Shown here: positions 4,398 to 57,330 of the stretch, one piece after another
Layout: each line of letters starts with the position of its first letter
Numbering within the stretch: position 1 is the stretch's first letter
Origin: Rhabditophanes sp. KR3021
Lineage: Eukaryota > Nematoda > Chromadorea > Rhabditida > Alloionematidae
Direction: 5' to 3'
Length of the DNA: 64,000 nt
Assembly: GCA_963281155.1 (NCBI GenBank)
Contig: CAUJLY010000002.1
Coordinates: 2,170,001-2,234,000, forward strand
Made by a program: the position numbers and the translations under genes
Notes under the pieces: model-generated
The model's input: only the letters and a program-made list of their open reading frames with translations
Database searches by the model: none
Told to the model about the DNA's origin: nothing

Positions 4398-7300
4398 ATG
4401 AAGGGAACGTTTATATTTCCCCTACTAATACTGACAATATTCACTACCACCATAAAATGCTCTATTTTCGATCAAGTAAGTTGATATAAAATTTAAACAT
4501 CCTCTCCTTGACAAAGGCAAATAAAATTATTTTATGGTACCAATAAAAAAAGTAATTTGATTAAGTCTTCTCGGTGTGGCGCGTCACCTGGCGTCATTTA
4601 TACTTTAACGCATCTTATTTAACAATTTAACTTACCACTAATTTTAGAATTCGGAAAAGAAATGCATACCCATTGATATTGGCATTTGCAAAGATATACC
4701 CTACAATTATACCTTTCCTAATCCCAATTTTTCATATGACACTTCCATTCTTCACACAGATCATTTTAAACCACTGATTAGGACTAATTGTAATCCACAT
4801 ATCAAATTTTTTGTTTGTTCCGTCTTTGCACCTATGTGTCCTGTGGGCCTTCCACAAGCCGTTACTTCATGCAAATCAGTTTGTGAGGAAATTAAACGCG
4901 ACTGTATTAAAATATTTACTGATTTTGACATGCAATGGCCAGAAGTTTTAGATTGTTCCAAGTTTCCGGAAGAACCGGATCTCTGTATGAAGCCTAATCC
5001 TATTGAAATGTCCTACCAACGAACATCCGACTACCTAGCTAATACGGATACTATTTTCACTAAACATGTCCCTACATGTCCTAAAGACTTGATTAATCTA
5101 GATGGAGGTAATGCTAATGGTTCATGTGCTGGCAAATGCCACCAAGATTTATTATTCAATGTCAAAAACAAAATTGATGTGCAATATTGGTTGTTTGTGT
5201 TTGGAGCTATTAATGTGGCAGTTACCTTTTTTACTGTCTTGACGTTTTTAATTGATAAGAAAAGATTTAGATTTCCTGAACGGTAAGTCATGCTTTATAA
5301 TTTTCTGCCAAACTTTATTTATATTTTTTGTCATTTGGGCAAACACAAAAAGTCGTAAAAAGTTGATGGGACGTATGTTTTGTCCTTTTTTGTGAGTAAG
5401 ATACATTTTATGATTCTGTTTATGATGTCCATTACTGAGATTATAACAATTTTATAGCTTTTTATATGTCTTGGACCGAGAAGGGTAAGATATTCTAAAG
5501 ATTGTCCAAAGATACTTTAAAGATACTTTTTAAGTGTTGTCATCATCATAAAAAGATACAAATACACAAACAAATATATCCATCTCATAACAAAACGAAT
5601 TTATCCATCTCATAACAAACGAATTTTGCAACCCTTTTGTCTCTTTCAACAAAGGTTTAGGGGGTGTCGGCATCTTTTTATTTAAGGATATCATCTCTTG
5701 CCAATGATAAATTGTTATGGTTAGGGGTGTTTGAAGTGCTTCAATATAAAGAAACATAAATTATGATTATGGGGCTGCTAGTTTAATGAAATGGGCGATA
5801 AATTAAACTATCCAGATTAAAAACTGATGATATAGATGATAATTTTGAAAATGTCTCATAAATTATTTATTTTACATTTTTTATTGTTTAGGTCAATATT
5901 TTACATCGCAGCATGTTATATGTTTTATTCTGTACCGTATCTATATCAACTCCTGTATACGTATGATGATGTTGCCTGTGGATCAACTACTACTGGAGCA
6001 AGGTACTTGATAGAATCCGGAGTTGAGAATAAACTTTGTGTCGGAACTTTCCTGCTTACTTATTACTTCTCAACAGCTGGAGCATTATGGTGGTTGGCTC
6101 TGAGTATTACATGGTAAGTGAATTTCCAAACGACCCCCAAAAGAGATCCAATAAATTAGAGGAACATATTTAAGTGAATGCATCGTCTCTTTTTAGCGAA
6201 AATATATATTGCATTTATAAAACATTTAAATACATGTTTTAGTGTATCTCATTGACATCTGTTGACTTGACAATAAAAAAAGTATTAGGGCAAATGGTCT
6301 TTTAGGCAAGACATGCCATTAAGACAATATAAACAGTATAAACAAAAAGTTGAGTCTTTTATTAGGCTATATAGGACCTTTTCTTTATAAATAATTACGA
6401 ATATATGAGAATATATTGAGAACATATAGTCTTCTCAGTGCTTTTATTGTTTCGTGTAATTTATATGGGGAAAGTTTATTTAATTTTCTTTTCTATTTTA
6501 GGTACTTGTCAACTGGGAGAAAATGGGTTCCCGAAGGTATTGGTTTATTAAAATATCACAAAAATGCTTTGTTAAAATATCACAAAATATCATTTATTAA
6601 AATTGCAAATGCGCAATATCATAAGTATCAACGAACTCGCCAATGATGAGGGCGGCTACCTTCCTGTTAAGACCCGAGTTCATTTTGAGAACCTCTTCAA
6701 AAGAAGCATAGCCAGAATCCGAGTTCTTGATTTGATGTCTGAATGCCCTGATCAGGATAGCTTCGATGTTGTTAATGACTTCCTCCGATTGGTATTTCAT
6801 TCTTAAGACTGGGATTTCTTTTTTAAACCTAATATTGCTTACATCCTCCTCAAACTTCTAAATCTGTCACTAGCATTGGAGATAGATTCAGGCGCTTCAA
6901 GCTTTTCACTTCATCTTTTAAATGAAGAGTCCTTTCATAATTCTGGTAAAACTTATCAATAGGTGTCTGCTTATCGAAGCACCAGTTCAACTCTTTGTCA
7001 ACTAAATTACAACCCTGTTTTCGGCTTGTCGAACCATAGTGGTTAATAACTCCAATCTAAGGCGTTGTTGTAGCACTAAAATTTAAATAGTAAAGGTACA
7101 ACGTTTTAGATTGTTAGAGTGTTTGACTAAACTGATAATTAAAAATTAAAAACATAGACACAATCTCTTTCATGAAAATATTTAATGTATTATCGGATTT
7201 TAGGAATTGAATCTTGTTCGAATTATTTGCATTTATTTGCATGGGGATCGTCTGCTATTTTAACGTTGGCTGTATTGGTTGGCAATAAGGTAAGTGACAA

Positions 7301-9362: not shown

Positions 9363-11656
9363 TTATTGGCTGTCTGTGCTTATGGCATCGGTATCAGTTT
9401 CGTCAGTCAAAAATTGCTGATTAAAATGAATTACGATGACCGTCATGTCATCTCTATAGTTTCTGGCAATTCCTTGAGGATGATTCAATTGGTCTTTCAA
9501 ATTGGCATATTGTTCATCTAAAGACTTTGTTACTCCTCCAAGAGCATGGCGAACAATATGTGTTGCTGAATTATCATCTATTGGTTTTTTGTTGGAACCA
9601 AAGCGTCTGGAACTTAATTCTTCTATTACTTTATCAAGAGTAATTCCATTCGTGGGTTTGTAAGCTGTTAAAGTTTCTCGACCTCTGCAGTGATCATTTA
9701 CAATTCTAACAACTGTATCTGGATCTAGAAAATCAAATATGCCATCTGAGCAAACAATCAGAAATTTGTCATTAGGTGTCAGTTGATGATAGAACACGTC
9801 CGGTAAAGCAGTCAAGTATGGAGGAGTAGTTAAATTCTGCGGGACGTTATATCCTAAAGGAGCTAAAATAATCTTCTGCAAATCTCGAGACCATTTAAAT
9901 TGAACATCTCCGAAGGCTCGTAGTGGAATTAATTCTCCTAACAATCTCCCGTCTAAACGAAATTCAATGTTAAATTAAAGATCTAAATGTGAACTCACTT
10001 TTCAAGATGGTTCCTCTCTCATTTTGCGGATGAGCTTGCCTCACCCTTTTCACTTCATCTGCATTTTCAGGATTGTGAAACCTCGTAATCTGTCTCGACA
10101 CAATCGTTCCATTATTTAACACCCCCATAACAGCGGCCGAATCTCCTATATTTGCTACATGCAAATTGGAACTTCTAATATGTGCCACAGTTGCACAAGA
10201 TCCACTCGCTGCAATTGCCGCACTCTGTCTACAAAAATGGCCCTTAATATCGGGAAGGGCTCCATTTCCAATATCATCATCTAAGGCAACAAAGGCCGCT
10301 TGAATAGCCTTCCTTACAGTAAAAGAACTGCTAGATTTTTGAAAATTCTGATAAAAAGCTCGCACATTCTTTTCATGTTTCAATTCAAACAGTTGAGGTA
10401 ACTTATGCACAATACTAGACGAAATCCACTTTAGTCTTTCCATAATTGGTATATCCTCCTTCACGACATGTTTCTTAAGGACTGCCGCGCAAATATAATC
10501 AAACAATCTAATAGAAACATTCCTACTGCACGTATATCCTCCAAAGGTTAATTAATATTTTTGAATTTTAATCTTTATTAGTTCAAGATGTTTATCCCCA
10601 TATTACGATGACACCTCGTACATTTAATATTAGCTGAAAGCTACTTGTATTTTGGCGATATTATCATCAAATAAAGCCTTATTAATATTGTTTCTGTATT
10701 TTAGTGAAAAAACATTGCACCATACTTGGCGTTATTAGCTATTATGGCTCGACAATTAGGAAGAAAGAGTGAGGTGCGTGATTTGATTGATGAATTTACA
10801 AGACATGCCAGTTTGGAGGAAAAGCCACCGAATAAAACATCCAGGAATGAAGAGAGTTTGTCTTTTGGCGAAAGTGTACCTTTTATAGGGAATGTTCAGT
10901 TTAAAAGCCAATTCTATTATGATAAATCTGTTTTAGATAAACATGAAAGTATGGAAGACAGAACGGAGATTTGCAGTTTCGTAGATAGAGGGCTGAACTG
11001 GTACTCCGATAAGCAGACGCCTATTGATAAGTGTTACAAGAATTATGAAAGAACTACCTATTTAAGAAATGAAGGCTCTGCTTTATGAAAAGTTGCAAAT
11101 ACCTGAATCTATCGCCAAGGCTAGTGACAGATTTAGAAGTTTGAGGAGGATGTAAACAATATTAGGTTTAAAAAAGAAATCCCAGTCTTAAGAATGAAAT
11201 ACCAATGGGAGGAAGTCATTAACAACATCGAAGCTATCCTGATTAGAGCCCTTAGACCTCAAATCACAAACGCAGATTCTGGCTGATCTTCTTTTGAAGA
11301 GGTTCTCAAAATGAACTCGGGTCTTAACAGAAAGGTAGCCGACCTGATCGTCGACGAGTTTACCTATGCTCCTAATTGTTCGTATTTAAAATTTTAGTAA
11401 AGATTATTTTTAATAATTTACCTCCATGTCCATCAAAGATTCCAAAAAGCGAAGCATCCGAACTCAAACACCGCGCAATGGAAAAATTATCCTCCACAGG
11501 AGCATTTGCAGCTAATTGACACACATCTACCCGTGCCACAGCTCCCTCATTAATGGTATAACTTCTTTCAAAAGCACGTATCTTGGCATCAATAGTAGCT
11601 CGAGTTGTAGCTCCACGTTTTGGTCTTATTGATAAAGTACTTCGGCAAAAAGACAT
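9363..11656 (-). CDS. PDP1: pyruvate dehydrogenase phosphatase, PP2C type
   Basis: Mg/Mn-dependent PPM phosphatase that reactivates mitochondrial pyruvate dehydrogenase by dephosphorylating E1-alpha. Exons on the minus strand: 11656-11422, 10538-9999, 9952-9363, giving about 454 residues; vertebrate PDP is about 530. The N-terminus is basic and Ser/Thr-rich, as for mitochondrial import. PP2C metal motifs are present: VEDN (about 55), IFDGHGG (73-79), VANIGDS, CSDGIFDFL and YRDDMTVIV near the end. RLLGELIPLRAFGDVQFKWS and TPPYLTALPDV are characteristic of PDP rather than other PPMs. Intron 2 is only 46 nt (9953-9998); intron 1 (10539-11421) is almost filled by an antisense family copy. The start at 11656 is the first ATG of the frame. 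Confidence 0.92.
10600..11380 (+). mobile_element. decayed copy of the intron-nested family (PDP intron 1, antisense)
   Basis: One of the longest copies, on the + strand inside a minus-strand gene. In order: LILAESYLYFGDIIIK (matches MLAERYFGDIMIKYSF at 26.8 kb), GVISYYGSTIRKK, then in another frame the open stretch 10726-11088 with SFGESVPFIGNVQFK (compare PFGESKPFVENGMFK at 46.8 kb) and DKQTPIDKCYKNYERT, then after frameshifts NNIEAILIRALRPQITN, a stop, SSFEEVLKMN and VADLIVDEF near 11360. At least three frame breaks make it a pseudogene copy. It lies 40-60 nt from both ends of the host intron. Confidence 0.8.
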
Positions 11657-14442: not shown

Positions 14443-15394
14443 CACATGCACTGACCTGAATCGAGATTTGTAAAGTTATTTTATTAAACAAGATAGGTAG
14501 ATGTTAATAATAATAAAGCGATATAATATTTATATTGCAGCCCAAATCACGAGCAAATAAATCAAAAGCAAAAAACAGAATGTGTCGTAGGTTTATATCT
14601 TGTTCAAAATATTATGTATTCTTCAAAGCTTTTGGTACTTTTGTCATGGACAAATAGGTTTGATAAGATCATTAGTGGTACTAGTAACTATTTATTCTTT
14701 ACAAATGTTTCCTTTTTTACTTTGCAGAACCGCCTTTTGTTAAGAGGCAGCAATCGATGGGTAATGGTTGGAATGTGAATTTATGATATTTTAAAAAATG
14801 CATATACTTTATACTTGTATGAAATGGATGAATGGTTATGTCAGAACACACAAGGGCAATTTGACTATGTAACAATTTTAAAGAGGAACAAAGGCAAATT
14901 AATTTTGGGAGGAAAGTCATTTCTTGAGACTTTTCTATTAAACTAAATGAGTAAGGATAAATAAGTGTAAGCAGATGTGCAAATCATCATTGACACCAAT
15001 GTTTGAAGAATGATGCATCGATGTCTAAATAGCACATATATTTTAGTCTACACACAAACAAACAACCTACCCAATTTTTTTCCTGGCCAATTTTATAAAT
15101 CGTTTTAAGACGTGACACAGAACGATGAGATGCGATGATGATTAAGATTTGACGTTTACTTATGCATGCTAAAAAACATATCTAAAATGAAACAAATAAT
15201 ATACACACTTGGTGAGAGAATGCTAATAATAGTGTTTGCATCTAATCATTTGTGTTATCATGGCTTTTAAACTGTTTCCTATCTATTATATACAAATTTT
15301 ATACATTTCCCCCTCTCTATTATTATCCAATTTTACTTTCAGGTTAAGCTGCTGATGACTAATTATTTTGATATTCTGCTAACATATTAGTATC
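14443..15394. other. divergent intergenic region DIPP / ANKLE1
   Basis: AT-rich DNA with no supported gene on either strand; presumed to contain both promoters and the 5' UTRs. Confidence 0.5.
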
Positions 15395-16976
15395 ATGGAA
15401 AATCAATCGAATCAACTAGGATTGACTATATCTAGCGTCTCTTTACATGCACTAGCTCAGCAGAAAACGGAGTCGGCCATGACTTCTGTCAAACTACTGA
15501 TTGAGCAATATGCACACAAAGTTTCAGAACATCGAATAGACGATGGGTCGACTCCACTACATTTAGCGGCATTTTGCGACAATTTGGCAATGGTGAAACT
15601 ACTGATACATATGGGTGGTGATATTGACGCATTAGATTCATTTGGCAGGACGCCAATTACTCTTGCTGTTGGAAAGAGCCATGCATATTTAAGGGAACTC
15701 AAACAAGGTCCACCCAACCAACAAGTAAAAGACAAAAAGAAGAAATTTAACTTTATCTCCAATTTATTACCAAACTTCGGTAAGCCTAAAGATCCAAACA
15801 AAAAAGAAACGCAAAACAAGTTTAAAAAATTTTTCGGCAAAGGCCAAAAAGTTGTTACGTGTACAGAAAATGAACTGCCGGGTGAAGGCAGTGTAATTAT
15901 TCCGAATTTTGAGCCACCACCTGAATCTACTGCAACTACTGGAAACCTTGATGAAGATCTGGCACAAAATGAGAAGGAGAATATTGAAAAGTTATATGCG
16001 CCTATCATTAAATCACCCAAGCAATTGGCATTTAATCCATTTTACAAGGAGTCACCCAAAGAAATGGCCCCACCTAAACCTCCAAGACGTGACTACAACT
16101 GTACAGAGGAGTTAAAACCAAATGGAACGGAAGAAAACGATGTTGCAGCTATCGAGGAAAAAGGTCCACCACTGCCGTATAGAAATTTGAAAATTTCGTT
16201 TGTATCGGATGATGAGGGCGACAAGTCAACACTAGTGAACGACTCTTTCAGATCTGCACTAAATAGTCCAGTTGATCATATGGACGAAATGTCTTTCCTG
16301 TGCAACAACATGGGTTCTGTAAATATAAATGAACCTCCAGCAACTATTCCTGGGGGAAAAGAAAGTGCCAGTTACACTCTATTCTCCTACTTTAAATCAG
16401 TTTATTATGAATTCGAGTGATAGCTCAATGTACTCTGATGGAGTGATGTTAGATGGCCAGTTGAAAGATGAATTATATTCAGATGCAACTCCGCAGAAGA
16501 AAAACAAATTACCTAATTATTTCTGTTACCTATTGCTAGATCCAACAATTTTGAATGGCGTAGATGGTATGATAGGCTTTGACAAGTTTGTGGAAAGTGT
16601 CTTCTATGCCGGCAAAGGCACTAATGCTAGAACAAAAGCTCATCTCCTAGAAACCTTGAAGAAAAGAACTGAAAATACACCATTATGTGGCAAAACTCAA
16701 AAAATCAGTGATCTCTGGGATCAAAAAGTAGGAGTAATTCAACTTCAAATAAATCAATCTATCAACGAGGCTGAAGCCCTATGCCGTGAAGCTGCCATCA
16801 TCGAAGCCGTAACTCTTTCTAAATTGACAAACAAGAAAAAAGGTGAGTTTTATGGGAACTCTGCCATCTGGTCTGCTAAAGAAAAACAATTACTTGGGTG
16901 TATTTGCTTAGATCGTGCCTTCAAAATGTATCAAATTGAAAATATAAGACCTATCCATGAACATGACTTAAAATAA
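15395..16976 (+). CDS. ANKLE1: ANKLE1-like ankyrin / GIY-YIG endonuclease
   Basis: Structure-specific nuclease related to animal ANKLE1 and nematode LEM-3, which cut branched DNA and chromatin bridges. Two exons, 15395-16318 and 16401-16976, joined by an 82-nt GT-AG intron, give 499 residues. Ankyrin repeats occupy about residues 30-110 (DGSTPLHLAAF, FGRTPITLAV). A charged low-complexity middle contains proline motifs (PPKPPRRD, GPPLPYRN). The C-terminal GIY-YIG domain has FCYLLLDP, FYAGKGTNARTKAHL, the catalytic-glutamate helix REAAIIEAV, and LTNKKKGEFYG. I see no LEM domain before the nuclease, unlike vertebrate ANKLE1. Without the intron the two frames would not join. Confidence 0.9.
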
Positions 16977-17159: not shown

Positions 17160-19637
17160 TTATGAGAAAGTAAATCCAGAGGTGGAGTAAACAGTAAATA
17201 CTCTGTGGATGGACAAAGCATAGGCAGCAGTTCTAAGATCAAGTCCAAGATTGTGCTTTTGGGCAGTCTTGATGATATGGTTGGCAGATCTGGTCATGGA
17301 ATATTCAAGACCGGAGTGGACGATATCCTTTTCGGAGGCTCCTTCGATACGCTTGGCGAATGAGGAGTTTGGAACGATTTGGACGTCTTTTCCGAGGGCA
17401 GTAGAGATGGACTCTTTGACGGATTGGAGGAGATGGTTGTTGGTGTCTTTTTCGTACTTGAAGGTAAGTCTTCCGTAGGAAACGTGGTTCAAATTCTTGA
17501 GCCATTCGAAGTAAGAGACGGTTACTCCGCCACTGTTTATGTAAAGATCGGGAATGATCAAACAATCTCCACGAGCCAATAAGATCTTTTCGGCGGCAGG
17601 GGTGATTGGTCCATTGGCAGCTTCAGCAATAACTTTAGCCTTAATTTGGTGGGCATTTTCTTTGGAAATGGCCTTTTCACAGGCAGCGGGAACGAGAATA
17701 TCACAGTCCTTGTACATGAGAGTTTCGTAATCAGGGACATCGGCAGCTCCTGGGAATCCCTTGATGGTTCCGTTCTTGATCTTGTAGTCTTCAAGTTCCT
17801 TTGGATCAATTCCGTCTGGGTTGAAGAGGCCACAATTGTACTCTTGAATTCCGACAATCTTGACTCCATCTCTGTGGAGATATCTCATGGTGTGAAGGCC
17901 GACGTTACCAAATCCTTGGATAATGGCTGTCTTTCCCTTGTATCCGATTTCGAGTCCGACTTTGTCCATGTATTCTTTGTTGTTGATGAATACTTCCATC
18001 CCCTTCCAGACTCCACGGCCAGTAGCTGACACACGTCCATGAATTCCTCCAGAGACAATTGGTTTTCCAGTAACACAGGCAGAGGCATCTCTGTCTTGGT
18101 GCCCAGTAGTTTGGGCATAAGTATCAGAGATCCAAGCCATTTCGCGCTCTCCTGTTCACAAGAAAAATAAAATTTTAGATCATCATTTTATGTGTTATTC
18201 ATTTTTATTAGCAAGTGCTAGTTATTTTATATCATTGTATCTAGTATCAAATTTAAACAGGCTAACTCTATTTTGGAACGATGCTTAACTATTGTCGATC
18301 CCTTTTCAACCAACTTGGAACTAGGAACAACTAAGGAGGACTTGATCATCATGCTCGATTACAAAGCAGTTTAATTGGCAGGAGATTATCTAAGCCGCGT
18401 GCTTTATCAAACGGGTACAAACGAATCAATCCGTTTATCAAAAAAGTTGATCTAAGTCACGGATACTGCAAAGGAAACATTAGCTAAAGCTGTAAAAGTC
18501 AAGAAACTATTGGATCAACTCAAAGCTAACAAGGAAGACGAAGCATGCTGTGTTTGCTCGTTTTTAAATTCTACTTCTCTTGCTAATGGATGATGAACAA
18601 GATGCCATGAAATATGCTGGTGAATCCGAGAAAATGCCAAATCACAGAGGTAGCTTCAATACTCCTCAAATTAGTCTTTGACAAGAAGAGATTCCTGAAC
18701 AAACTTGTCAGTGCAGGAAAGAAGTTGGTTGTTATCAAAAAAAAAGATTGTTGAAAACATTCAAGCAGTTCTTATCAACGGTCTTCGTAGTCAACTCAGC
18801 AACAGCCAAGGCGGAAAACCATCCTTAGGTTTTGTATTAAGCATGAACCCCGAGTAAACTCACAAGTTGCTCAACTTATCCTGACGGACTTCTCAGAATG
18901 TGGATACGAAAAGCATATTATGAAGTATTAATATGTTTTGTGTTTTAACTGAATTTTTATGCCAAATTACCGGTTCCCATGTCTGGGGCTGGGACATCTA
19001 CTCCTGGTCCGAGGAATCCCTTCTTGGAGAATTCGATGGCGATTCTTCTGGTGATCTTCTCGATTTCATAGTCGGTGTATTTCTTTGGGTCGATCTTTGA
19101 CACCTCCTTTAGCTCCTCCGAATGGAACATCAACCACTGAGCATTTGAATGTCATGAGAGCAGACAAAGCCTTGACTTCATCTTCACAGACGTCCAAGGA
19201 GTATCTGATTCCTCCTTTGGTTGGAGTCTTGTGTTCAGAGTGCTGAGCTCTCCAGGCTTCGATAATTTCGTACTGTCCATTTTCTCTTCTGATTGGGAAA
19301 GTGATGTAAAGGACTTTGTTGACTGGCTTGATGGTAGCTAAAACTCCACGAACGAAGTTTTCCTTGTTTTCAACAGAGGCGTTTTGTCTCTTGTCTTCCT
19401 TGATGAGAACTGGTTCGAGGACAGCAGCTCCTTTGTCGTAGTAGTATTCGACCATCTGGAAAAGCATTATTACGTTGTTAAGTAAAATCGAGTTACCTTG
19501 AAGAAAGAAGGGTTGATTTGCTCATCCATAGGCTTCATTTCATCGTTAACTTGGGCATGGGGATCCAAGTGAGCAGACATGAGTCTGGAGCTGGTGGCCA
19601 AAGTGGCCTTAGAAATTTGATTAACGCGAGTCAACAT
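17160..19637 (-). CDS. GLUD1: mitochondrial glutamate dehydrogenase
   Basis: NAD(P)-linked oxidative deamination of glutamate to 2-oxoglutarate and ammonia in the mitochondrial matrix. Minus-strand exons 19637-19497, 19455-18971 and 18151-17160 give about 538 residues. The first about 45 residues resemble a mitochondrial presequence ([18 protein letters not shown]). Signatures: [18 protein letters not shown] with the catalytic region [37 protein letters not shown], and NAD-binding [16 protein letters not shown]. One extra base at 19095 breaks the frame between GGAKGGVK and [13 protein letters not shown]; both sides are otherwise perfectly conserved. Codon choice is visibly more C-rich at third positions than in the neighbours, as in highly expressed genes. 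Intron 2 (18152-18970) carries an antisense family copy. Confidence 0.93.
18280..18935 (+). mobile_element. decayed copy of the intron-nested family (GDH intron 2, antisense)
   Basis: The + strand frame begins near 18290 with [19 protein letters not shown], continues with [16 protein letters not shown] and [17 protein letters not shown], breaks several times, and ends with the family C-terminal module: [30 protein letters not shown], a frameshift, then [20 protein letters not shown] and a stop near 18932. Multiple stops make it a pseudogene copy. It covers most of the 819-nt intron and is opposite to the host gene. Confidence 0.75.
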
Positions 19638-34349: not shown

Positions 34350-35520
34350 ATGTCACGAAACTCCAGTTACTACGAGTCAGAAGGAGAATACCCGAGTGTG
34401 GGTTTCATGGTCATTTGGACTAAACTGGCATCTGACGACCTGACCACCGAAAAGATCAAAGCTAAGGAGTTGATTGACCAACACAAGGAAGCAATCATCA
34501 GGCGGAACAAGGCCTCCTTTGTCAGGTCAATTTGTTCAATGGATTGGGTGAGGCGTTGTGCTTGCAAAGAAACTGGTAAAAGTTATGTTGTAACTGATAA
34601 GGTATCCGGAAATAGCTTGCAAGATGAAAGGGTCCTGGTAATGGCTCTTAGCTTGTGTCCTTACTCAGATGACAATCCTATACATTGGGAATTACTTTAC
34701 TCCGTGTATAAAGCTACCACGGATGAACCAGTGTCCGCAAATATTGGACGGTATGGGAATCACTGGGAGAAGATTGGCTTCCAAGGTAAATAATGTAGAT
34801 TTTAAATGAAAAAGTTTGTTAGAAATTATCAATCAAGTAGTTTGGTGTAGCATTAAAGTGAAATAATTTTTAAGGATTAAGTTAGACAGAATCCATTTCT
34901 TCGGACTTGATAGTTGACTTCTTTTCCTTTGGATGCTTTCTTAATCCAACACGTAGATTAGAATCTAACAATGCTTGGAATATGAGTCGGGCGACTTGAT
35001 CTTTCCGAAACAGTTGGGTAATCATTCCTAAGTTTCAAATTCACTGCAAACTATTAAAGAACTACAGCCACTGTGGTTTATATTAAAAGATATAAACATT
35101 TGTACTAATATATTGGTTCCAGGTAACGATCCGTCTTCTGATTTACGAGGAGTTGGAGTGTACGGACTATGTCAGCTACTTTTTTTAATGTCGAATTGTC
35201 TCAGCCACAATGTAAAATGTGATATTTTAGCTTTATCCCTTGATAAGACTCAAAATTTTCCTTTTGCTGTGGTAGGATTAAATTTCACCAACATAATTAT
35301 CCAAAGACTTAGAACAGGAAAACTAGATCAACTTGCTGACAAAGAAAAGACATATTTTTCTGTTGTTAATGGCATTTATAGAGGAGTTTGGCTGATGTTC
35401 TATAGAATTTGGAAGAGTAGAAATTGCACTATCAAAGATTTTGGACATGTTCTAGAAGGTAAGGAATTATTTGCTAGTCTCCTTTTAATAAATGATTTCA
35501 GAACTAAGCAGAATGGTTAA
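34350..35520 (+). CDS. ELMOD3: ELMO-domain protein, ELMOD3-like
   Basis: ELMOD proteins act as GTPase-activating proteins for Arf/Arl small GTPases. Exons 34350-34785 and 35123-35520 join in phase 1 to 277 residues. The ELMO domain covers most of the protein: HWEKIGFQGNDPSSDLRGVG crosses the splice junction and contains the conserved GAP arginine region, followed by QNFPFAVVGLNFTNIIIQRL, which fits ELMOD3 best. The open frame extends upstream of 34350 only to a TAA near 34264, so I use this ATG. Another ATG at 34247 heads a different frame. The upstream TTCTTTTTCAG could be a trans-splice acceptor. Intron 1 contains an antisense family fragment. Confidence 0.88.
34882..35040 (-). mobile_element. 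truncated copy of the intron-nested family (ELMOD3 intron, antisense)
   Basis: The minus strand reads NLGMITQLFRKDQVARLIFQ, then ALLDSNLRVGLRKHPKEKK and a stop at 34884-34882. This aligns with the end of the 46.5 kb copy (NMLPKKKDQVAQLILQEFLD then VKQPVNLKK). Only about 50 C-terminal codons remain in this 337-nt intron (34786-35122). Orientation is opposite to the host. Confidence 0.65.
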
Positions 35521-45978: not shown

Positions 45979-48710
45979 ATGATGAAGGCAGTATGTAGGT
46001 GGTTGTTAATCAATCGCAGCGATTTGAGAGTAAAAGACGTACGCAATTTAATGATAAGAGAAAAATGCTGTAAAAATGACAACCACGAAGGTTATAAAGG
46101 TTATAGTTATAAAAGTGGTAGTGAAGATAAAAAAGGTTACTATGCCTTTTATGCAGGAGGATGGTTGGTGTCAGGGGTTGCGGCTGTTGGCCTTCTTAAT
46201 CCCGACTCAACTTCATATTTCCTGGGCCATAAATTAGAAAACGAGGATGATTTAAAGAAAAAGCTACACGTCAGCAAGGATTCTGTTAAATTAACAAAAA
46301 AAGAAATTATGTTCTTGGCTTTTGCATCTTGTGAGTACGATGAAGTTATTTATATGACTCCGGTAAGCAATATATAAAATAAGTGGATTATTTATTAAAT
46401 TAAATTTATTAAACTAAAAGGGTGAACAAAGATGGATAAATAAGTGAATTATGAAGACTTTTTTAGATTAACAGGTTGTTTAACATCTAAGAACTCTTGG
46501 AGGATTAATTGAGCCACCTGATCCTTCTTTTTTGGAAGCATATTTTTGACTAATTCATAAGTTGGCTTTCCAGAGACGCTGTTAATAACATTGTCTCTGC
46601 AATAATCGATCAGGATGTCTGTGATATTTAAGGCATAATCTTCTGAGGCATGTGTCTTTTTCAAGACGATCATTTCTTTGCCAGCAATGAAGACTTTGTG
46701 CATCTCCTTATCATCAAACAAGAAATTCCATCAAGTTATCTTTCTTTTCATCAGCTTTTTCACCACCAATATTAGTATGCTCTAAAAAGAAATAGTTAAT
46801 AAGTTGATAGCTTCTTTAAACATACCATTTTCAACAAACGGCTTACTCTCCCCAAAAGGGATACCTCTGTCAGTTCTAGGAACCAGACAATGTTTTGCAA
46901 CTGAAACAAATGAATAATTAAATAAGGGCTTAACATGATGACTAATGCTAAGTGATACCGAGGCAGTCTCGATTTTTTGGAATTTTCGGGTTTTCATCGT
47001 CTCGTGTCTCGACCTACATTTACCCGAGACGTCTCGGAGTTTTTAAAAAATATATACCAAGTTTCTTTAGAATTAAACATTTAAAAGTGCTTGTATCTCA
47101 TTAAAATTAAAACAATGTTTACAAAAATCAACGACTTAACCGTGAGAGAAAGCTAATTAGTTAACAGTCTATATTCTCCTTTAAACATGTTAAAACGAAT
47201 ATTATTGATAATGCAGGGGATACATGTTAAAATTCAGAAGCCTACATAAGTCAACAGTCTCTTGATTGAAATTATTCTGAAACTATTACCTTCTAAAAAG
47301 AACATTAATAACTAAAACTGTCCACGATCACATCTTTAAGAATTTGCCTTCTTATTCTTCTTCCAATTGTGAAAGATTAAATTCCTTACTCAAAAGGAAA
47401 AAATATAGTGAGATGATTATTTGAGAAAAAGTGATATATTGTTATTTGTAATATAATTTTTGTCTCGCGTCTTGGATACATTTTGAAAATGGGAAAAAAT
47501 TATGCCTTTTAGCTAATATTTTGAATGAGCAAGTTACTAAAAAGCAGTTGGTACTCAGTTACCACATTCAGAAAAAATATTAATCAACTATTACATTAAT
47601 ACAATATTAACATTTTGTATGACTCAGGACGATTTTCTGGATTGCCTGACACGCCAACATCCCCATGAACGTGTGTTTCGACGTGTGTTAGATGAGTCAA
47701 AAGTAATGGAAATGCTGAAAGCGACACCTAACTTCTCTGAAAAGGAAACAAATATGTTTCGTACACTGGGCAGCAACGGTATAATTAGCTATGCGGAATT
47801 TTTGTTCTTGCTGACATTACTCACAAAAACCTTGGCTGGTTTTCGGATTGCCTTTGCTCTTTTTGATGAGGACGATAATGATATAATTGACAAGCGCGAA
47901 TTTTTGCTTGTCCGAAGCCTAGTGACTCCCCTGCGGACAAGATCTCGGAAACAAGAAGAAATGACAGAGTATAACTTTGATCACTGTGCTCTTGATGCGG
48001 AAAATATCAATGACATCATTAATTTAATAGAGGGTTCCGTTGACAAAAAGGACGAGACCAAAATTAGCAAAGAAATTGAATACAAAAAGTCTGATCATCA
48101 AATTAAGGTCCAAGAAACAACCATATCAAAGTATTTGTTCGGGCAAAGGGGAAATCAAATGAGGTCATTTAATGATTTTAAAACGTTCTTTGAACAGCTT
48201 CAAAAAGAATTGACGGAAATTGAGTTTAGTGAGTTTTCCCGTGGCAAGGATTTCATTCTACCGGCTGATTTTGCTAGACTTGTCTTAAGGTACTCCAATT
48301 TACATCCTATAGATGAAAAAGAGTATTTGAATAGAATACACAAAAGAACTAGTCCCGGAGATGCTGGGATTTCCTTAGCTGAATTCCACAAATTTTCGCT
48401 CTTTATTAATAACCTGGATAATTTTATAAAAGCCGTCAGATTGTACACGAATGGCGAGATTCCTGTTTCGGAAGAAGAATTTATTCGAGCTGTTCAAGCT
48501 GCAACCTCACTTCAATTATCATCTAATTTAGTTCATATAATTTTTTCCATTTTTGACGAAAATGGAGACGGATGCTTGACTTATTCAGAATTTATAGCTG
48601 TGATGAATGATCGTTTAAATAGAGGTTTCAAAAAAAGGAGAGGTGGTAGCAAAGGTGTAGGTTGGGGCTATTTCAAAGATTGTGTTATCAATGAAGTTAG
48701 CCGCAATTAA
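45979..48710 (+). CDS. MICU2: mitochondrial calcium uptake protein, MICU2/3-like
   Basis: EF-hand regulator of the mitochondrial calcium uniporter in the intermembrane space. Exons 45979-46362 and 47628-48710 join in phase 0 to 488 residues. The N-terminus is basic (presequence), with a hydrophobic segment near 60-75 (AGGWLVSGVAAVGLL). Conserved blocks: FASCEYDEVIYMTP joined to DDFLDCL, GIISYAEFLFLLTLLTK, first EF-hand FDEDDNDIIDKREF (about 207-220), KYLFGQRG, and the C-terminal EF-hand FDENGDGCLTYSEF. The long form of ISYAEFLFLL and the region after EF1 fit MICU2/3 better than MICU1. The 1265-nt intron contains an antisense family copy, and its end repeats the upstream exon end. Confidence 0.9.
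46445..47000 (-). mobile_element. decayed copy of the intron-nested family (MICU intron, antisense)
   Basis: Minus strand from 46997: an open piece with PFGESKPFVENGMFKEAINL (compare SFGESVPFIGNVQFK at 10.9 kb), a frameshift near 46785, NIGGEKADEKKDNLMEFL, another shift, then the open stretch 46721-46449 with [52 protein letters not shown] and DQVAQLILQEFLD before the stop. This gives the best-preserved C-terminal module. Sequence from 47000 to 47627 is non-coding and may be its 5' region. Confidence 0.8.
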
Positions 48711-49398: not shown

Positions 49399-49566
49399 CT
49401 CAAAAGTTGCAAATTAGACAAAAATAAATCTAATCTTCCTCGTGGTCCCAACACGACAAATTTCTACCTAGCCAAACATTGGAACAACATATCTTTGCCA
49501 AATTTAAAAGTATTTAAACATCTCCCATCAAATAGGATATTTCAAAATACTTTTGCCATCTGAAAA

Positions 49567-52500
49567 ATGAATTTGGATTATCGGGTAAGTAAAAAGCATT
49601 CAAATTAATTTATAATTAAATATTCATCTGATTTAGGCTTCGGATTTACTTGGAAATGTTTACAAGAATGGTAATATTCTTTTCCATCCAGCAACGGACC
49701 AACTTTATTCGACCATTAATAATAAGATTAAAGTTTTTGATCTAAAGGACAATATTTCTTCTTTGTTGCCTTTCACATCGAATTACAATATTGTCAGGTT
49801 TACCCTTTCACCATCGGGCAGACTAGCTTTTATTGTAGACTGCTTGGGTCGAGCTCATCTTATTAATACAGCTAAGGGAGTAGCTGTTGCCTCTATGAAA
49901 GTAAGCAAAAATGTTGGTGATATCAAGTTTTCTCCAGATTCAAAGTACATGGCTATTGCTTTCGATGGAAAAGTTGAGGTTTACCTGTTGAATAAAGCTA
50001 CCTTTGACTCATTCAATCCTTGGTTCAAGACTTGCTCAGTAACTCTAAGTTCAAACAAGATTACGCACTTAAATTGGTCCGATGACGGGGAAATCATCAT
50101 TGCTGGAGGAGAAGATAAGCAAGTTGCTGTTTTTAAACCTGAAAAGACTAGCTACCAGAATCAAGATAAGAAAATGAAAATGAAGTTGATGACTTGCCAT
50201 TATGGGTCAATTGTTAGTTGCTTTTTCCTCAAAAATTCGTACGATTGCCTTTCTGTTGATGATCGTGGATATGCTATTCTCTGGAAGTCAAACCAGATAT
50301 ATGGAAAGTACGCTTCCAACCGTGATGAAGAAGGCAAAATGGGTCCTGTTTTTTTTGATAGGACAGAAAGAATTCGCCTCCAAGATGCTGCTTCCATTCC
50401 AAACAATGTCGACTGTACTAACGCTGATTTCCACCAAGCCAACAACATCCTCGTTACATCGTATGCTAATGGAGCCATCATTATCAATGAAGTTCCCACT
50501 TTTTCCATGATTCAATCCATAAAAGTAGGAGATGTCGCTGTTAAATCTGTCGCCTTCAATAAAGATGGAGACTGGCTTGGTATTGCCTCAAAGGGAGGTG
50601 CACTTGGTAAGCTTAACTTAATTTGATAAAATCTAAAATATTAGACGTATTTACATTTTTTGAGCGATTCAAATACTTGAGCTTCTACTATATCAAATTT
50701 AAATGTATCATTTATGTATGTCTGATAATTATACTATTATTTTAGGCCAAATTGCTGTTTGGGGCTGGCAGTCAGAATGTTATGTTATGAATCAACAATC
50801 TCACACACATACAATTACCTGTGTTCAGTATTCTCCTTCCGGATCACTTATTGCAACGGGTGGATTAGATGGAAAAGTCAAGATTTGGGATGCTGGGTCT
50901 GGAAATTGCCAAATTACATTTACGGAGCATAAGAATTCTGTCACATGTGAGTCAAAGCTCCCTAAACATATCACAATAAAAATTACAAAAATCAAGCAAC
51001 AGGAGTAGCTTGACCGAAAATAGAGCACATTTAGTTTAATTAAGAATTAATTGTCTCGAAAAAGACTTACAAATAGCTTATTAAAATATTTTGGGCTTAG
51101 AAATGACTTCAAGCAAGAGGTCAACGATCTCGCACGCATTCGAAGAATTTAATAAGTAGACCTGAGGATTTATGTAGAGTTATTTTGAATATACTAAAAC
51201 ATTAATTAAATGTGATATTCAAAAATCTTAATCTAAGTAAATTAGATGAGTGGAAACAACTAAATATCAACTTAGCGATAAAGCTTCTTCTAAATTTCAT
51301 ATCATTTACAGGTGTTTGTTGGACTCAAGGTGGGAACGTGATCCTCTCTTCTTCGCTTGAAGGAACGGTCAGGGCTCATGACATGAAAAGGTACAGAAAC
51401 TTCAGAACTTTCGTATGTCCTGAACAAACTCAGCTGTCTTGCGTGACTACTGACAAAACTTCTGATCTGGTGATAGCTGTTGCTAAAGATGACTACAAAA
51501 TATTCATCTGGACGATGGACACGGGCAATTTGGTTGATGTGTTGGCTGGGCACTCCTCCAGAATCGCTGCAATTGCTTTGTACGGAAACATGCTAGCTTC
51601 TGTTTCTTGGGACAAAACCATGCGAATCACCAACATCATTGACAGTTCCGTCGAAACTATCCAATTAGGCGAGGAGGCTTTATCTGTTACTTATGCTCCA
51701 TGCGGAAAATTGATGGCTGTACTTACTTACGATTCGTCTATTTCAATGTACTCCACTAGAACTTCTGCTCCTATTGGAATGATTGACACCAAGTTCGATG
51801 TTAATCCTGGGCGTGGAGCTTTTGACATCATCAAGAAGGGAACTTCTAGTCGCTCGAAGACATTTGAATACATTGAGTTTTCTCCTGATTCGAATTTGAT
51901 TTTGGCTGGTGGAAACACAAATTATGTTTGTTTGTATTCGGTTAAAGATAGAGTTTTGCTAAAGAAGATTCAGATGACAGTAAACTTCAGTTTTGACGGA
52001 GTCGCTTCAGATATCAACTTCAGACAACTAACTGAATTCGGTAATCTGGATCACGTTGAGTTGTCTTCGGACGAAGAGGGAGATGATAACGGGAAGAAAA
52101 AGAAGATGGCTCTTGCTGGAACTAAGATATCGGATGCCGGAGAAAGAGCTTACAAGCCAACAATGCGTGCCAATGACGTTTCCTACTCTCCGACTGGGAG
52201 ATCATTTGCCATAGCCAACACTGAAGGTGTTCTCATCTACTCCCTTGACAGATACGACAAATTTGATCCATTTATGCTGGATGTTGGAGTAACTCCCCAA
52301 CTAATTGAAACACTTTTACTTGCCAACGACTACCTCAAGGCAATCGTCATGTCTATGAAACTGAACGATGAACTCCTCATCACCCGCTCTCTAATGGAAG
52401 TCCCACTTGGTGATATCAAAATCATCTGCCAACAACTTCCATTCATCTACGCTGAAAAGTTATTCATCTGGATGGCCAACAATTGGAAGAAAATCACAAA

Positions 52501-52729: not shown

Positions 52730-53054
52730 TTTTGTTGTTATTGTTTACTTTTTTATTGGTGCGATCCTTTCTTCAAAACCAATCATTTCGAATATTCTTT
52801 AAATTGATGGGAGACAACGAAGCTTTTAATCATTTTTAGAGTGTTTTTAATTACTAGGTTAAACCAAGAGACATTTTACCAATTTTTTCGAGTTATTTTA
52901 ATTGTTACCAAAAGAAAAATCTTTTGTTTTATTTGCCTTTTTAATATGAAATAAGAATCTATAAATTCGTCTTTTTTATTCCCCTCTGGTTGTCACCATC
53001 TTCTATTTAATTTCAAAATTATTTCTTAACTTGGTTAAAATTTTCTTTAGACAA
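52730..53054. other. intergenic gap PWP2 / RTCB
   Basis: A 325-nt AT-rich gap between two same-strand genes. TTTTCTTTAG at 53041-53050 ends 4 nt before the RTCB ATG and may be a trans-splice acceptor. Confidence 0.5.
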
Positions 53055-56000
53055 ATGTCAACTTCATTTGAAGCTGTCGTTCGTACCTACGATGAGGAGT
53101 TAAAATATATTGAACAAGTTGGACCCTGTACTTATCGTATCAAGAAAGGATTCGTTCCTAACATGAATGTAGAGGGGAAATTTTATTTGAATGACAATAT
53201 CAAAGAACATGCTTTAAAGGAGATCGAACTTTGTTGCCAAAGAGGATCGGTCGGAGGATATATTCCGGCTGTTAAGCAAATTGCAAATGTCGCCGCATTG
53301 CCAGGCATTGTCGGACAATCGATTGGTTTGCCAGATATGCATTCAGGTTTACTAAAGTTTTATAGTTTAAAAATATTCGAAAAATGTATCAAAAGCCAGT
53401 AGTGACTCCAACTTTGAGCGTAAACATTTTCTCAGTGATAAGCTAACCAATTAATAAGCACTATCAGGTGAAAGCTTGTAGACTTCCTCAAAGGAGCATT
53501 TTTCATGATCTAGATTTTTAACTTGGACGCCAAAGTACTGGTAAGAATATATTCTAAGTTCTCAGCCAATTCCGTACTTGCAGCATCCATTTTGACTACA
53601 ATTGTTTTGAAGAAGATGTATCGTGTGTCCTAAACTTCCTTCATGTTGTGTTGTTTTCTTGAGAGCACACATCGGCAATCAACACCAGTTTTGTACTTGA
53701 AAAGATGACTAGTGATTCTTGAGTTACTATCGTTAAATTTTGGGTCCGGCATTGACTTGTCGACATAATAAGCTGTTTCGATAAAGTCTGCCAAAGTCTT
53801 CACTTAAAGGTGCTGGGTTGACTCGGGCATCAAGGAATAGGTAAACAAATGCAGGATTCTGAACTGGGGATCGTTAACTTCGGGCCACATTTTGAGCAAG
53901 ATTTCCATAGCACTAAATTTTTTATTAAGTGTCTCCACAGCCTTGACTAAAACCACTTCATCGACTGCTTATTGTATTCCTTGGCAAAACTTGATCTTTA
54001 TCAAATACTTAGAGGAGATCGTAGCGGCCAATGATACGTTTGATCTTGTTCAAACCAAGCTTGAATGAGTCTTGGATGTTTCATTTGAAGCTAGTGAATA
54101 AGACAAATGATAAAATAGCTCAAACGTTGTAGTTGACTTTGTATAAGGTGCCTATATTTACCGAAATCAACTCGAATCACGAAACCACAAACTAGACAAA
54201 CAAAATTAGCGTTGCTTATTCCAAGATTTGAATAACGCCAAGCAATACATCAACTCCATTTTGAATAACTGTTTTCCGTGCTTCATCCTTCTTATCCAAA
54301 ATAGTCAATAAAGTGTTGACTAACATAACCTGTAGTGAACAATATAAATAATAATAACAAGCACTATTTTGTTAAAACAAAAATGACAAATCATCTTTAA
54401 GATATGCTATAAACAAATTTAGATGTCATATCATGCTACCTGCAAAATTAGTACAAAATATTCCTTATATTAGATTTAAAAACACAAAGTTTAAACACAA
54501 TTTTCAACTTTATAAATAATTGCATGGCTTCAGGATATGGATTTGCAATTGGAAATGTTGCTGCCTTTGATTGTGAGTCTGAGGAAGGTGTTATTTCACC
54601 AGGTGGAGTTGGGTTTGATATTAATTGTGGGGTTAGATTAATTCGAACTAATCTTTTTGAAGAGGATGTGCTACCAGTAAAAGAAGAGTTGACACAAGCT
54701 TTGTTCGATCATATTCCGGTTGGAGTTGGTTCTAAGGGAATCATACCTATTGGAACTTCCGATTTTGAGGAATGCCTTGAAATGGGAATGGATTGGACTT
54801 TAAGAGAAGGTTATTCATGGCCTGAGGATAAAGAGCATTGCGAAGAATACGGAAGGATGATTCAAGCTGATGCTACTCAAGTCACAACCAGAGCTAAGAA
54901 AAGAGGCATGCCACAATTGGGAACACTCGGAGCGGTCGGTCGTTTATTTCTATTGACTTCATCTAATAGTATTTATTTTTAGGGTAAGCAAAGGAGCAAT
55001 CAGAAATTTATTGGAAAGGGATAAAAATTAGACAAAACATTAATTAAATGATGTATTCTTGAGACAGGTCAATTTTGTTGAGAACAATTCGGGATATTCT
55101 CTTCACGGTTGTAGGATGTTTAACAAACATTACATCATTAGACTGCCCAGAGGAGTCGATATTTGCGGGAGTATCTTGTAGATCAGTGTAACAGCATATT
55201 CATAGGATAGTGCTTTATTACTAGATAAGTTGTCATGATACATGCACACAAGTTTCCTTTTACCATCAACAATATTCATAATCTTGGTTTCTTTTGGATT
55301 CAAAGAGATGAATCTTGAGAAATGGCGTTGAGTTTTTGTCCTGTGCCTATTAAATCTCGTTTCCGAAGAACCGGAGACACCGCAAAAGAAGATGGCTTCC
55401 ATAAATTGTTCGAAAGTTAACAGCTTAACGTCAATCTCTTTTGGAAGGTCTAGCAAGACATAGAACGACTGCTTCCCCGTGCATGTTTTCCTAGATGCAG
55501 CTTCTTTAGAGTTTCACTTAGTTTGTCCAGCAATTGATTGGAATCTAGTAGCTTCTTGTCTTCTTCAGATATCTTTTTGACTTCAGCTCTAAGTTTGATG
55601 CAAAGAAGGAGTTTGCAATGATAGGCAAAAGGTTCGTGATTGTTGAAGGTGTTGCCACAACTTCCACATTTCCAAGCACCACCTTTCTTATTAGTCAAAT
55701 CACTGGTGTTAGAAGAAGCATCCATAGACATTAAGTGCACGTTGTGTTCTTTTAAAGGATAGTTATACAAATATTCACCCAACGTTTGAAGTGCTTCTGG
55801 ATACAAGAACAAAATAAACTCCATTATCCTATTGGTAGCGCAGTTTGTCATTTTAGGATAATTATAGTTTATAGCATGTTCAATCCCATACGCAACATCT
55901 CTGATGAATTTCTCTTTAGAAGTAAGTATTTCCACAAACCTCACCTTTTGCGAAACAAGGAGCAAAATATTTTTGCTTTCTTGACATCGGAGCTTCATTA

Positions 56001-57330
56001 TAATTATGACATTCGATCGACACGTCATTGTTTTAAGGTTTGTCAATATCTGCCTTGCTATTCTCTAACAATTCTTTGAAATCGTCAATTGCCAAATCCA
56101 GTTGAGCCTCGTCTCTTTTCCTTCCAATTTCATTCGTGGATACCCTTGCAAAAGACTGGCTTACTGTTCGACAACTGTTAAATTAATTGATTATGATTGA
56201 TACTTGATACTTGCCTTCTGCATCTACTTCTGGCTCAATTGCATCACTCCTTTTCAGAGGCAAACTCTTGCTTGAATCTTTCTTGTCTGGTGCATCTCTT
56301 TTCTTTGGTTCCTCGTAGCTATCGGCATTTACTAATTTGTATTTTGACATGTCGTTAAAATCGAAAATTGGGTTGAGATAATTTATAAATGACCAAACAA
56401 TTTCTCTAAACACACTTTCCAATATCTCTTTAAAAGATACATTATATTCATAACATTATTTAATTATTTATCTCATCTGCTTCAGGAAATCACTATGGTG
56501 AGGTGCAAGTAGTTGAAGAGATTTACGATAAATTTGCTGCGAGAAAGATGGGAATTGAAGGTGTTGGACAAGTTGTTATTATGATTCATTGCGGTTCTCG
56601 TGGTCTAGGTCATCAAGTTGCCACCGACTCACTAGTTGAGATGGAAAAGGCAATGGCTAGAGATGGCATTCATATCAACGACAGACAATTGGCATGTGCA
56701 AAGATCAAGTCGAAAGAAGGACAAGATTATCTGAAAGGAATGGCAGCTGCGGCTAACTTTGCCTGGGTCAACAGATCATGTATAACTTTTTGTGTGAGAC
56801 AAGCCTTTGCCAAGACTTTTAATTGCACACCTGACGATTTGGACATGCATGTTGTTTACGATGTTTCTCATAACATTGCCAAGTTCGAAGAGCACATGAT
56901 TGATGGGAGACCTAAGCAGGTTTGTGTTCATAGAAAAGGGGCTACCAGAGCGTTTCCGCCTCATCATCCTTTGATCCCCGTTGATTATCAATTAACCGGA
57001 CAACCAGTAATGATCGGAGGCTCAATGGGAACTTGCTCATATGTGGCATGTGGGACTGAAAAGGGAATGGAAGAGTCTTTTGGGACTACATGCCATGGAG
57101 CTGGCAGAGCTATGGGAAGAAGTAAAAGTAGAAAGACCATTTCCTTCGAAGATGTTTTGGAAAACTTAAAGGAGAAAGGAATCAGTATTAGAGTTGCCAG
57201 TCCGAAGTTGGTCATGGAAGAAGCTCCCGAGTCCTACAAAAACGTGACAGATGTGATAGACACGTGCGAGAAAGCCGGTTTATCGAAAAAAACATTCAAA
57301 TTAAGGCCAATAGCTGTCATTAAAGGGTGA
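53055..57330 (+). CDS. RTCB: RtcB-type RNA ligase
   Basis: GTP- and Mn-dependent 3'-phosphate RNA ligase that joins tRNA exons and XBP1 mRNA in the tRNA ligase complex. Exons 53055-53346, 54534-54938 and 56486-57330 give 513 residues (human 505). Highly conserved throughout: [16 protein letters not shown] across the first junction, [14 protein letters not shown] (metal-binding Cys), [17 protein letters not shown] [23 protein letters not shown], the guanylated-histidine region [18 protein letters not shown], and the C-terminus LRPIAVIKG. At the second junction canonical GT-AG splicing inserts a valine into GTLGAGNHY; removing it needs non-canonical sites. Both introns are long and each contains an antisense family copy. 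Confidence 0.94.
53390..54340 (-). mobile_element. decayed copy of the intron-nested family (RTCB intron 1, antisense)
   Basis: Minus-strand pieces from 54330 down: [113 protein letters not shown], then [40 protein letters not shown] and [11 protein letters not shown] near 53440. Frames change several times and stops are frequent. The order matches the 55-56 kb and 41-42 kb copies, supporting one ancestral protein. The intron is 53347-54533. Confidence 0.75.
55045..56440 (-). mobile_element. longest copy of the intron-nested family (RTCB intron 2, antisense)
   Basis: Minus-strand open stretches 56422-56183, 56046-55450 (198 codons) and 55456-55130, then a short tail in another frame to about 55045. 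In order: a charged linker ([20 protein letters not shown]), a helical region with [20 protein letters not shown], a C2HC finger [20 protein letters not shown] with a further Cys, a Lys/Glu-rich segment, then the C-terminal module: [35 protein letters not shown], and [20 protein letters not shown]. This is the most complete member and shows the domain order of the family. It nearly fills the intron (54939-56485). Confidence 0.8.

Follow-up and report, generated by a model that had tools for sequence, protein, structure and literature searches.

Probable intron-generating elements with an antisense GIY-YIG nuclease gene in the nematode Rhabditophanes diutinus

How does a gene family come to lie in intron after intron of an animal genome, on the strand opposite to its host genes? 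The question is raised by a window of 64,000 nucleotides (C2:2170001-2234000; "the window" denotes this whole stretch) in the genome of Rhabditophanes diutinus KR3021, a free-living nematode and relative of Strongyloides. The genome searched here comprises 44,845,725 bases in six contigs, and Table 1 of PMC10676810 gives the assembly as 44.8 Mb in 6 scaffolds with 14,331 genes. The original prediction for this window described eleven copies of one unrecognised protein module, all within introns, all antisense to the host gene and absent from about 20 kb of intergenic DNA. We consider that the copies are probably an intron-generating element, or introner, of R. diutinus that carries its own nuclease gene. 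It is best read as a self-coding introner, or spliceosomal homing intron, that has spread through an animal genome and bears its gene antisense. Judged from sequence, support extends to the element being the intron, to the antisense rule, to the restoration of conserved proteins, to copying between unrelated genes and to past selection on the nuclease.

Wherever a junction could be resolved, the predicted splice sites make the copy the intron itself and not merely a resident of one. The second intron of RtcB (copy 11) and an intron of transketolase, 32 kb apart, match at 98% identity along 1409 bp and perfectly in a further piece of 28 bp at the end. This likeness spans the intron and not the exons, beginning 7-11 nt past the predicted donor and stopping 8-17 nt short of the acceptor. 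Such is the pattern that marks introners: similarity within a genome that reaches the splice sites and stops at the exon border in unrelated hosts. Since the two elements are 98% identical, the introns would have been gained by copying. A second group of elements, represented by copies 1 and 2 in the window, offers the same picture at its ends. By eye, element ends coincide with splice sites in four loci (L002, L004, L005 and L008); in three of these (L002, L004 and L008), which are different genes, the intron starts with GT and a common (T)TTATTAAAATT and finishes near TAAT(C/T)AATCTTTT.AG. A collagen intron of 249 nt has both of these ends. Removal of the predicted introns restores conserved proteins, in that the spliced peptides of RtcB (LGTLGAGNHY), transketolase (GSLGQGL) and dynein (GPSGSGKS) each align with their best Protein Data Bank chain ungapped at the junction. 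An automatic splice-site finder placed the junctions of frizzled and PP2C wrongly, and its table was not used for counts.

The element extends far beyond the window. Searches of the genome returned 44 nucleotide matches for copy 1, and 49 matches for copy 3 and 38 for copy 5; copy 7 gave at least 149 (150 of 267 candidates scored) and a protein related to copy 11 at least 157 (150 of 590 candidates scored). Clustering at 4 kb of 414 of these 437 pooled matches yields at least 338 element loci, a lower bound, the other 23 matches being seven unlisted ones from the search with the copy 11 relative and second pieces of one place. The loci we fetched are spread over many different genes. Orientation, a check proposed with the original prediction, was tabulated for 50 unique loci beyond the window, which are the best matches and not a random draw. 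The count leaves aside L001, L003 and L048 (window), L009 (the host LEM-3 gene), L010-L015, L033 and L034 (other genes or families) and the duplicates L019, L020, L023, L024, L035 and L036; L069-L079 were not scored, and L025 was retained although it has no BLAST match to the main family. Coding segments were called by a codon log-odds score trained on window exons, within flanks of only 1.5 kb, such that single loci may be wrong.

At a score of at least 10, the nearest flanking coding segments were antisense to the element in 73 cases and on the same strand in 9, and stricter scores gave 68 against 6 (score 12), 60 against 3 (15) and 42 against 2 (20). Counted by locus, 26 of the 50 were antisense on both sides and 13 on the sole callable side, 8 were mixed, 1 had a same-strand segment only and 2 were uncalled; none of these 50 best matches, at score 10, was sense on both sides. 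Among the nine same-strand segments, five are over 600 bp distant from the element; of the remainder, L022 looks like another element nuclease module, and L029, L042 and L061 stand without explanation. In the loci examined, the family is thereby borne out as protein-coding, dispersed and, for the most part, both intronic and antisense. The original prediction had named the purging of sense copies from existing introns as a possible source of this bias, an assumption that is not needed if the element is the intron itself: the orientation follows because the splice signals occupy the strand opposite the nuclease gene. The claimed absence from intergenic DNA would be accounted for in the same way only given a preference for inserting into coding or transcribed DNA.

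What does the element encode? By sequence comparison, its protein is a C2H2-like zinc finger followed by a LEM-3-like GIY-YIG nuclease. The open reading frame (ORF) of copy 11 (55071..55689, minus strand, antisense to RtcB) scores 25 bits (2.2e-5) against Pfam PF22945 (LEM-3_GIY-YIG), just below the curated cut-off of 27, and the first member of profile A4, built from 23 genome copies of the zinc finger and GIY-YIG region, lies above it at 28.2 bits. Twelve of the 23 aligned copies match PF22945 and 3 match PF01541 (E<=0.01). Genome-wide, 16 of 57 PF22945 matches exceed the cut-off, among them host LEM-3, a pair of LEM-3-like genes and some ORFs belonging to other families. Aligned by hhalign, A4 and host LEM-3 match at E 4.2e-8 (probability 95). 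At the catalytic positions, which we take from I-TevI to be Y, Y-x-G, R-x3-H, E and N, residues are kept in most copies (Y 17/17, Y 17/18, G 17/18, R 16/18, H 18/21, E 21/21, N 17/19). Past purifying selection on the element nuclease appears supported: every one of the 39 pairs with dS<1.2 (out of 239 pairs, which are not independent) has a ratio of nonsynonymous to synonymous rates (dN/dS) lower than 1, with a median of 0.31. The family once described as unrecognised is accordingly recognisable as a LEM-3-like GIY-YIG nuclease; what stands of that description is that no relative outside Rhabditophanes was found among 5.8 billion proteins (single sequence, 3 proteins; 23-row profile, 4 proteins; all of them from Rhabditophanes).

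Upstream of the nuclease lies, by eye, a first GIY-YIG-like region (HVYLGRA..YVGV..R..H) with a second finger-like motif. In copy 11 this module occupies 55453..56064 on the minus strand and matches profile A3, which represents it, at an independent E-value (iE) of 5e-82, being itself a member of that profile. Pfam did not recognise the GIY-YIG-like region, the structure model of A3 is poor (mean predicted local distance difference test, pLDDT, 47.6), and the alignment of A3 with A4 is confined to the shared zinc-finger region, so the identity of the upstream region rests on reading by eye. The A4 model is better (pLDDT 77). Compared with the sequences of solved structures, A4 returned only tyrosinase hits at E 0.64, which we took as chance, and hhalign of profile A2 (the modules of L022, L026, L027 and L037) with host LEM-3 gave a probability of 8. 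Still nearer the N terminus is a region (L062:153-821) that has no Pfam match and 54 genomic matches.

A further feature recurs at the host-5' side of many copies: GT, then some 30-40 nt, then CTAAT or similar and TTTTAG, followed directly by GTAA. The strict form of this junction, AG/GTAAG (a slash marks the junction here and below), occurs in 30 of the 50 loci. On the opposite strand none of the 50 has it, and shuffles gave a mean of 0.3 and a maximum of 2; the strict pattern was composed after reading those same loci. Donor and acceptor could be paired in frame for 23 of the 36 candidate loci, one of them the window RtcB, and these pairs delimit a mini-intron of 35-56 nt. The range searched was 28-75 nt, and the 13 candidates without such a pair were left out; 15 of the 23 are in phase 1. 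In copy 11, the predicted mini-intron is 48 nt long (54935..54982, plus strand), and ends in CTAATAGTATTTATTTTTAG; next come a single-nucleotide exon, G (54983), and another donor, GTAAGC (54984), whereby the host-5' end is a predicted twin intron, or recursive-splice-like junction. The arrangement TTTTAG/G/GTAA is present in RtcB, transketolase and a GLUT-like gene, and counting the single G restores the conserved protein. In the GLUT-like gene (L052) the reading with a 1-nt exon is in frame, and the direct version, using identical sites, leaves no frame open. The single-G evidence for a twin intron is, on sequence grounds, good but not unique. Because the junction module is common to copies in different genes, it appears to travel with the element.

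Traces of insertion may also be preserved in the host. Across 32 junctions, direct repeats have a mean run of 3.06, a value reached in 0 of 2000 shuffles, compared with 2.49 in re-paired controls, with ten bases in dynein and TGGAGG in PP2C as examples. Most of the repeats are short, which points to breaks whose ends vary and not to a fixed transposase. The glutamate dehydrogenase (GDH) paralogues, 218 kb apart, present a separate case, as their introns (18152-18970 in the window, and L077) are 97% identical and occupy the same site; given that shared site, the pair does not count as evidence for transposition. The 79 exon columns before the intron are identical, the next 60 upstream drop to 46/59, and farther exon windows mostly stand at 45-53/60 (75-88%), with one downstream patch at 56-60/60. 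Such a tract fits homing with co-conversion, and is possible, only suggestive, evidence of it.

Chromosomal distribution adds a broader constraint. C6, the largest scaffold (11.2 Mb), holds 7 of the 338 loci where 84.5 are expected by length, an approximately twelve-fold depletion, yet kinases are not depleted there, with 38 of 128 kinase matches (element versus kinase, Fisher p 4e-17). Kinase ORFs on C6 have longer open frames (median 440 versus 341.5 amino acids, p 0.003), and C6 genes may be intron-poor. According to the available text of PMC10676810, Chr6 of R. diutinus is syntenic to ChrX of S. ratti. From its numbering and size, C6 is probably this chromosome. The X is silent in the nematode germline, and the depletion of C6 would therefore fit insertion into germline-active genes.

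These observations can be assembled into a mechanism. One strand of the element would hold the splice signals: in many copies an intron of about 45 nt ending in a branch-like CTAAT and TTTTAG, directly followed by a strong donor GTAAG, and a distal acceptor. The opposite strand would hold the gene for the zinc finger and GIY-YIG protein. An element inserted into a coding exon in the right orientation would be removed by splicing to leave an exactly restored host protein, the join often falling inside a glycine codon. The reverse orientation would disrupt the host gene, hence surviving copies would be antisense. The nuclease message, read from the other strand, would not be spliced. We infer splicing itself, and likewise that the AG/GTAAG junction is spliced recursively, which would make a weak GT near the insertion usable as first donor. 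We lean towards the view that the GIY-YIG protein cuts target exons and that the break is repaired by copying the element, that is, by ectopic homing. About the fullest form of the proposal we are evenly divided: it would place autonomous spliceosomal homing introns in an animal nucleus, where a selfish nuclease of the LEM-3 DNA-repair type cuts glycine codons of conserved motifs in germline-active autosomal genes and inserts an intron bearing its antisense gene and a recursive junction that lets almost any exon site be a donor, hundreds of introns having been so born and the X-like chromosome spared.

Several points weigh against this proposal. All splice junctions were predicted from reading frames and not from RNA, some calls are uncertain, and recent intron gain would follow only indirectly, from a 98% pair in one genome, whose members differ between the 1409-bp and 28-bp matches. 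The strict junction motif is lacking in 20 of the 50 loci, among them L002, L004, L005, L007 and L008 of the copy 1/2 group; RtcB and transketolase also keep an open frame when spliced directly, with one additional residue, and transketolase can be read as a twin intron only with a GC donor. Direct repeats of at least 6 occur at only 4 of the 32 junctions, only position -3 stands out position by position, and a constant target-site duplication, looked for at the same 32 junctions, was not found. The GDH tract can equally be explained by plain gene conversion. Foldseek with the A4 model retrieved no structure at E<=0.001. Finally, neither a transposase nor a reverse transcriptase was recognised in the element ORFs given to Pfam, and with the N-terminal region unclassified and no copy known to be complete, the mobility enzyme is unproven.

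It is this last point that leaves room for an introner moved by other machinery, whether an N-terminal transposase or a retroelement acting in trans, with the GIY-YIG protein as helper or passenger. The unmatched N-terminal region, with its 54 genomic matches, could house such an enzyme, and known introners are described as stemming from nonautonomous transposons, mostly in a manner consistent with DNA transposition (available text of PMC9860276). We nonetheless regard this alternative as unlikely, as Pfam recognised GIY-YIG and no other enzyme domain in the element ORFs submitted to it, this domain kept its catalytic residues and was under purifying selection, and integrase-domain matches are few, at 17 in the genome. 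Less probable still is an ordinary transposon residing in pre-existing introns, its sense copies purged over splice or polyA signals. Copy 4, which does not demonstrably fill its intron, and the many fetched loci with unresolved junctions (13 of 36 in the mini-intron set) would suit it, but unrelated intron ends would then be expected, not homologous ends that adjoin splice sites in different genes, and RtcB and transketolase share nearly a whole intron and no exon. The stronger version, in which all copies lie inside older introns, we rejected on the same ends and pair.

That the copies are instead host genes nested antisense, a domesticated LEM-3-like family housed in introns, seems very improbable. 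A host LEM-3 gene does lie in the window and the reading frames bear signs of selection, but the loci number in the hundreds, many copies contain stops or are truncated, and the structure of the junction travels along with the copy. Spread by gene conversion between paralogues, without transposition, strikes us as scarcely credible as a general account: it finds its example in the patchy tract of the GDH pair and may hold for single pairs, but it is refuted for RtcB and transketolase, which are unrelated genes, and a great variety of host genes is represented among the fetched loci. An introner that encodes its own nuclease is the reading we retain.

Returning to the window, nine of the eleven copies proposed originally are supported as repeats, all nine with the ORF or module opposite the host strand. 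The notion of one uniform family proved too simple, as there are groups without nucleotide match to each other, and two of the eleven are unconfirmed. In a self-comparison of the window, copies 1, 2 and 4 (6.6, 10.6-11.4 and 26.4 kb) share 76-82% nucleotide identity and copies 5 and 8 (30.6 and 46.5 kb) share 74%; the other copies have no mutual nucleotide match. Profile A4, with E-values that refer to the window only, recovers copy 11 (iE 8e-55, though its 98% relative sits in the profile), copy 10 (6e-6) and copy 5 (1.4e-3), and weakly copies 2 (0.03), 7 (0.29) and 1 (0.38). Its only further match at E<=1 is the host LEM-3/ANKLE1-type gene at 16.4 kb (1.5e-9). This gene (15383..16976, plus strand; ankyrin and GIY-YIG, Pfam 6e-49) is the nearest known relative of the element nuclease and not an element copy. 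A smaller profile, A1, matches copy 8 at 0.91 and an unrelated stretch (62.8 kb) at 0.72, and copy 3 is linked to the shared module weakly, at iE 0.15 with A2. Copies 6 and 9 (34.9 and 51.1 kb) had no match in the window profile searches and are placed by intron location only, in ELMO and PWP2.

Confinement to introns holds in the resolved cases; the junctions of copy 4 and the right host exon of copy 8 were not pinned down. Copy 1 makes up a whole Frizzled intron (6537..7203, plus strand; junctions and an open spliced frame), its gene on the minus strand with the module at 6612-6851, and splits a glycine codon in phase 1 (WVPE-G-IES). Copy 2 is a whole intron of a PP2C phosphatase (10539..11421, minus strand) with the element gene on the plus strand; it splits a glycine codon (DGHG/GYTC) between direct repeats of TGGAGG at both junctions. 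The same is true of copy 3, a whole GDH intron (18152..18970, minus strand; element on the plus strand; MGT/GERE), here with an imperfect direct repeat, GAAC(C/A)GG. Copy 4 (26381..26890, minus strand) is a fragment of the copy 1/2 group in a plus-strand gene, identified by nucleotide similarity and translation, and may sit in an older intron. Copy 5 is a sideroflexin intron (30343..30974, minus strand) at a glycine codon in phase 1, its module on the plus strand at 30629-30877.

Copy 6 corresponds to an ELMO intron (34786..35122, plus strand) at a glycine codon (GFQ/GNDP), with the near-repeat TTCCA(A)GGTAA at both intron ends; the short module piece claimed for it has no profile support. Copy 7, a hexosaminidase-like intron in phase 0 (41394..42433, minus strand; DQIQ/IMLWH), contains a zinc finger and GIY-YIG-like ORF on the plus strand at 41844-42365. 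Copy 8 lies on the minus strand of a plus-strand interval with an approximate right end (46363..46935), within which 46484-46729 is the part matching copy 5. Copy 9 is a PWP2/WD40 intron (50947..51311, plus strand), the module fragment claimed there having no profile support. Copy 10 is the first RtcB intron (53347..54533, plus strand), at a glycine codon (DMHS/GYGF), with a GIY-YIG remnant on the minus strand at 53516-53845 and, by eye, TTCAGG at both junctions. Copy 11, a 1.5-kb element, forms the second (54935..56485, plus strand). Of the window introns, nine were resolved, and seven of these interrupt a glycine codon in phase 1 (frizzled, PP2C, GDH, sideroflexin, ELMO and RtcB twice); those of the hexosaminidase-like gene and PWP2 do not. 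The ELMO and PWP2 introns, both among the nine, contain the two unconfirmed copies.

Other GIY-YIG ORFs were encountered elsewhere in the genome. Those of L012 (C6), L013 and L014 (C5) and L034 (C2, near 7.5 Mb) are possible free-standing relatives, L013 and L034 having C2H2-finger arrays by eye. L025 and L033 belong to another GIY-YIG family, which BLAST did not match to the main one, and L025 lies, by eye, antisense within an apparent immunoglobulin-domain gene. L010 (C1) and L011 (near one end of C6) are two nearly identical LEM-3-like GIY-YIG copies, the match of L011 containing one stop. A retroviral-type integrase ORF (PF00665, 7e-15) stands beside the element copy in L018, at 2459-3418 on the minus strand.

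The origin and spread of spliceosomal introns is a long-standing open question, and the introns described here seem to bring their own enzyme. Their antisense layout would allow an intron to hold an expressed gene whose message is not spliced away and which does not break its host, and the AG/GTAAG junction suggests a general device for making insertion sites spliceable. The question is testable, as R. diutinus is grown on OP50 plates (methods as given in PMC10676810). In the open-access literature searched, we found no report of such introns in nematodes or of GIY-YIG genes in animal spliceosomal introns.

How, finally, do these elements compare with known systems? Introners (available text of PMC9860276) resemble them in forming families of similar introns whose ends are splice sites, in being enriched in genes (in most introner genomes), in having splice sites contributed partly by element and partly by target, and possibly in variable target-site repeats. 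Target-site duplications or terminal inverted repeats are features of part of the known introner families. Those introners are described as deriving from nonautonomous transposons, whereas a conserved protein gene is present in the elements here; only two taxonomic groups of animals and land plants are reported to have introners, and the main text of that survey does not contain the word "nematode". Penelope-like elements combine a reverse transcriptase with GIY-YIG, of which only GIY-YIG was recognised here in the ORFs given to Pfam, from copies that are possibly incomplete. LEM-3/ANKLE1 shares the Pfam domain PF22945, but host LEM-3 has ankyrin repeats where the element protein has C2H2-like fingers. 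Group I introns of nuclear rDNA, as the available text of PMC9548176 describes them, are likewise mobile and have a homing nuclease gene that may be antisense; they reside in rDNA, and the introns here are predicted spliceosomal introns of protein genes. Stwintrons of the Hypoxylaceae (available texts of PMC8469720 and PMC12403724) are nested introns removed in two consecutive splicing reactions, and they too form similar families at new positions. In the fungal [D1,2] type the donor is interrupted after its first base, whereas here the inner intron is predicted to end directly before the outer donor or 1 nt ahead of it, and the element has an antisense nuclease gene. Similar in another respect are the shintrons of mirusviruses, spliceosomal GT-AG introns with homing-type nuclease genes, GIY-YIG among them, an association called previously unobserved in the available text of PMC12768974. 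Here too a homing-type nuclease gene lies in a GT-AG spliceosomal intron, in this case a predicted one. As described there, shintrons are viral, lie mostly in virion genes and show target-gene preference by nuclease class, whereas the introns here occupy hundreds of loci dispersed over unrelated host genes in an animal nucleus, with a predicted twin-intron junction in many copies and a LEM-3-like nuclease. The nuclease gene here is antisense. If our reading is true, nuclease-encoding spliceosomal introns would extend from giant viruses to animals.

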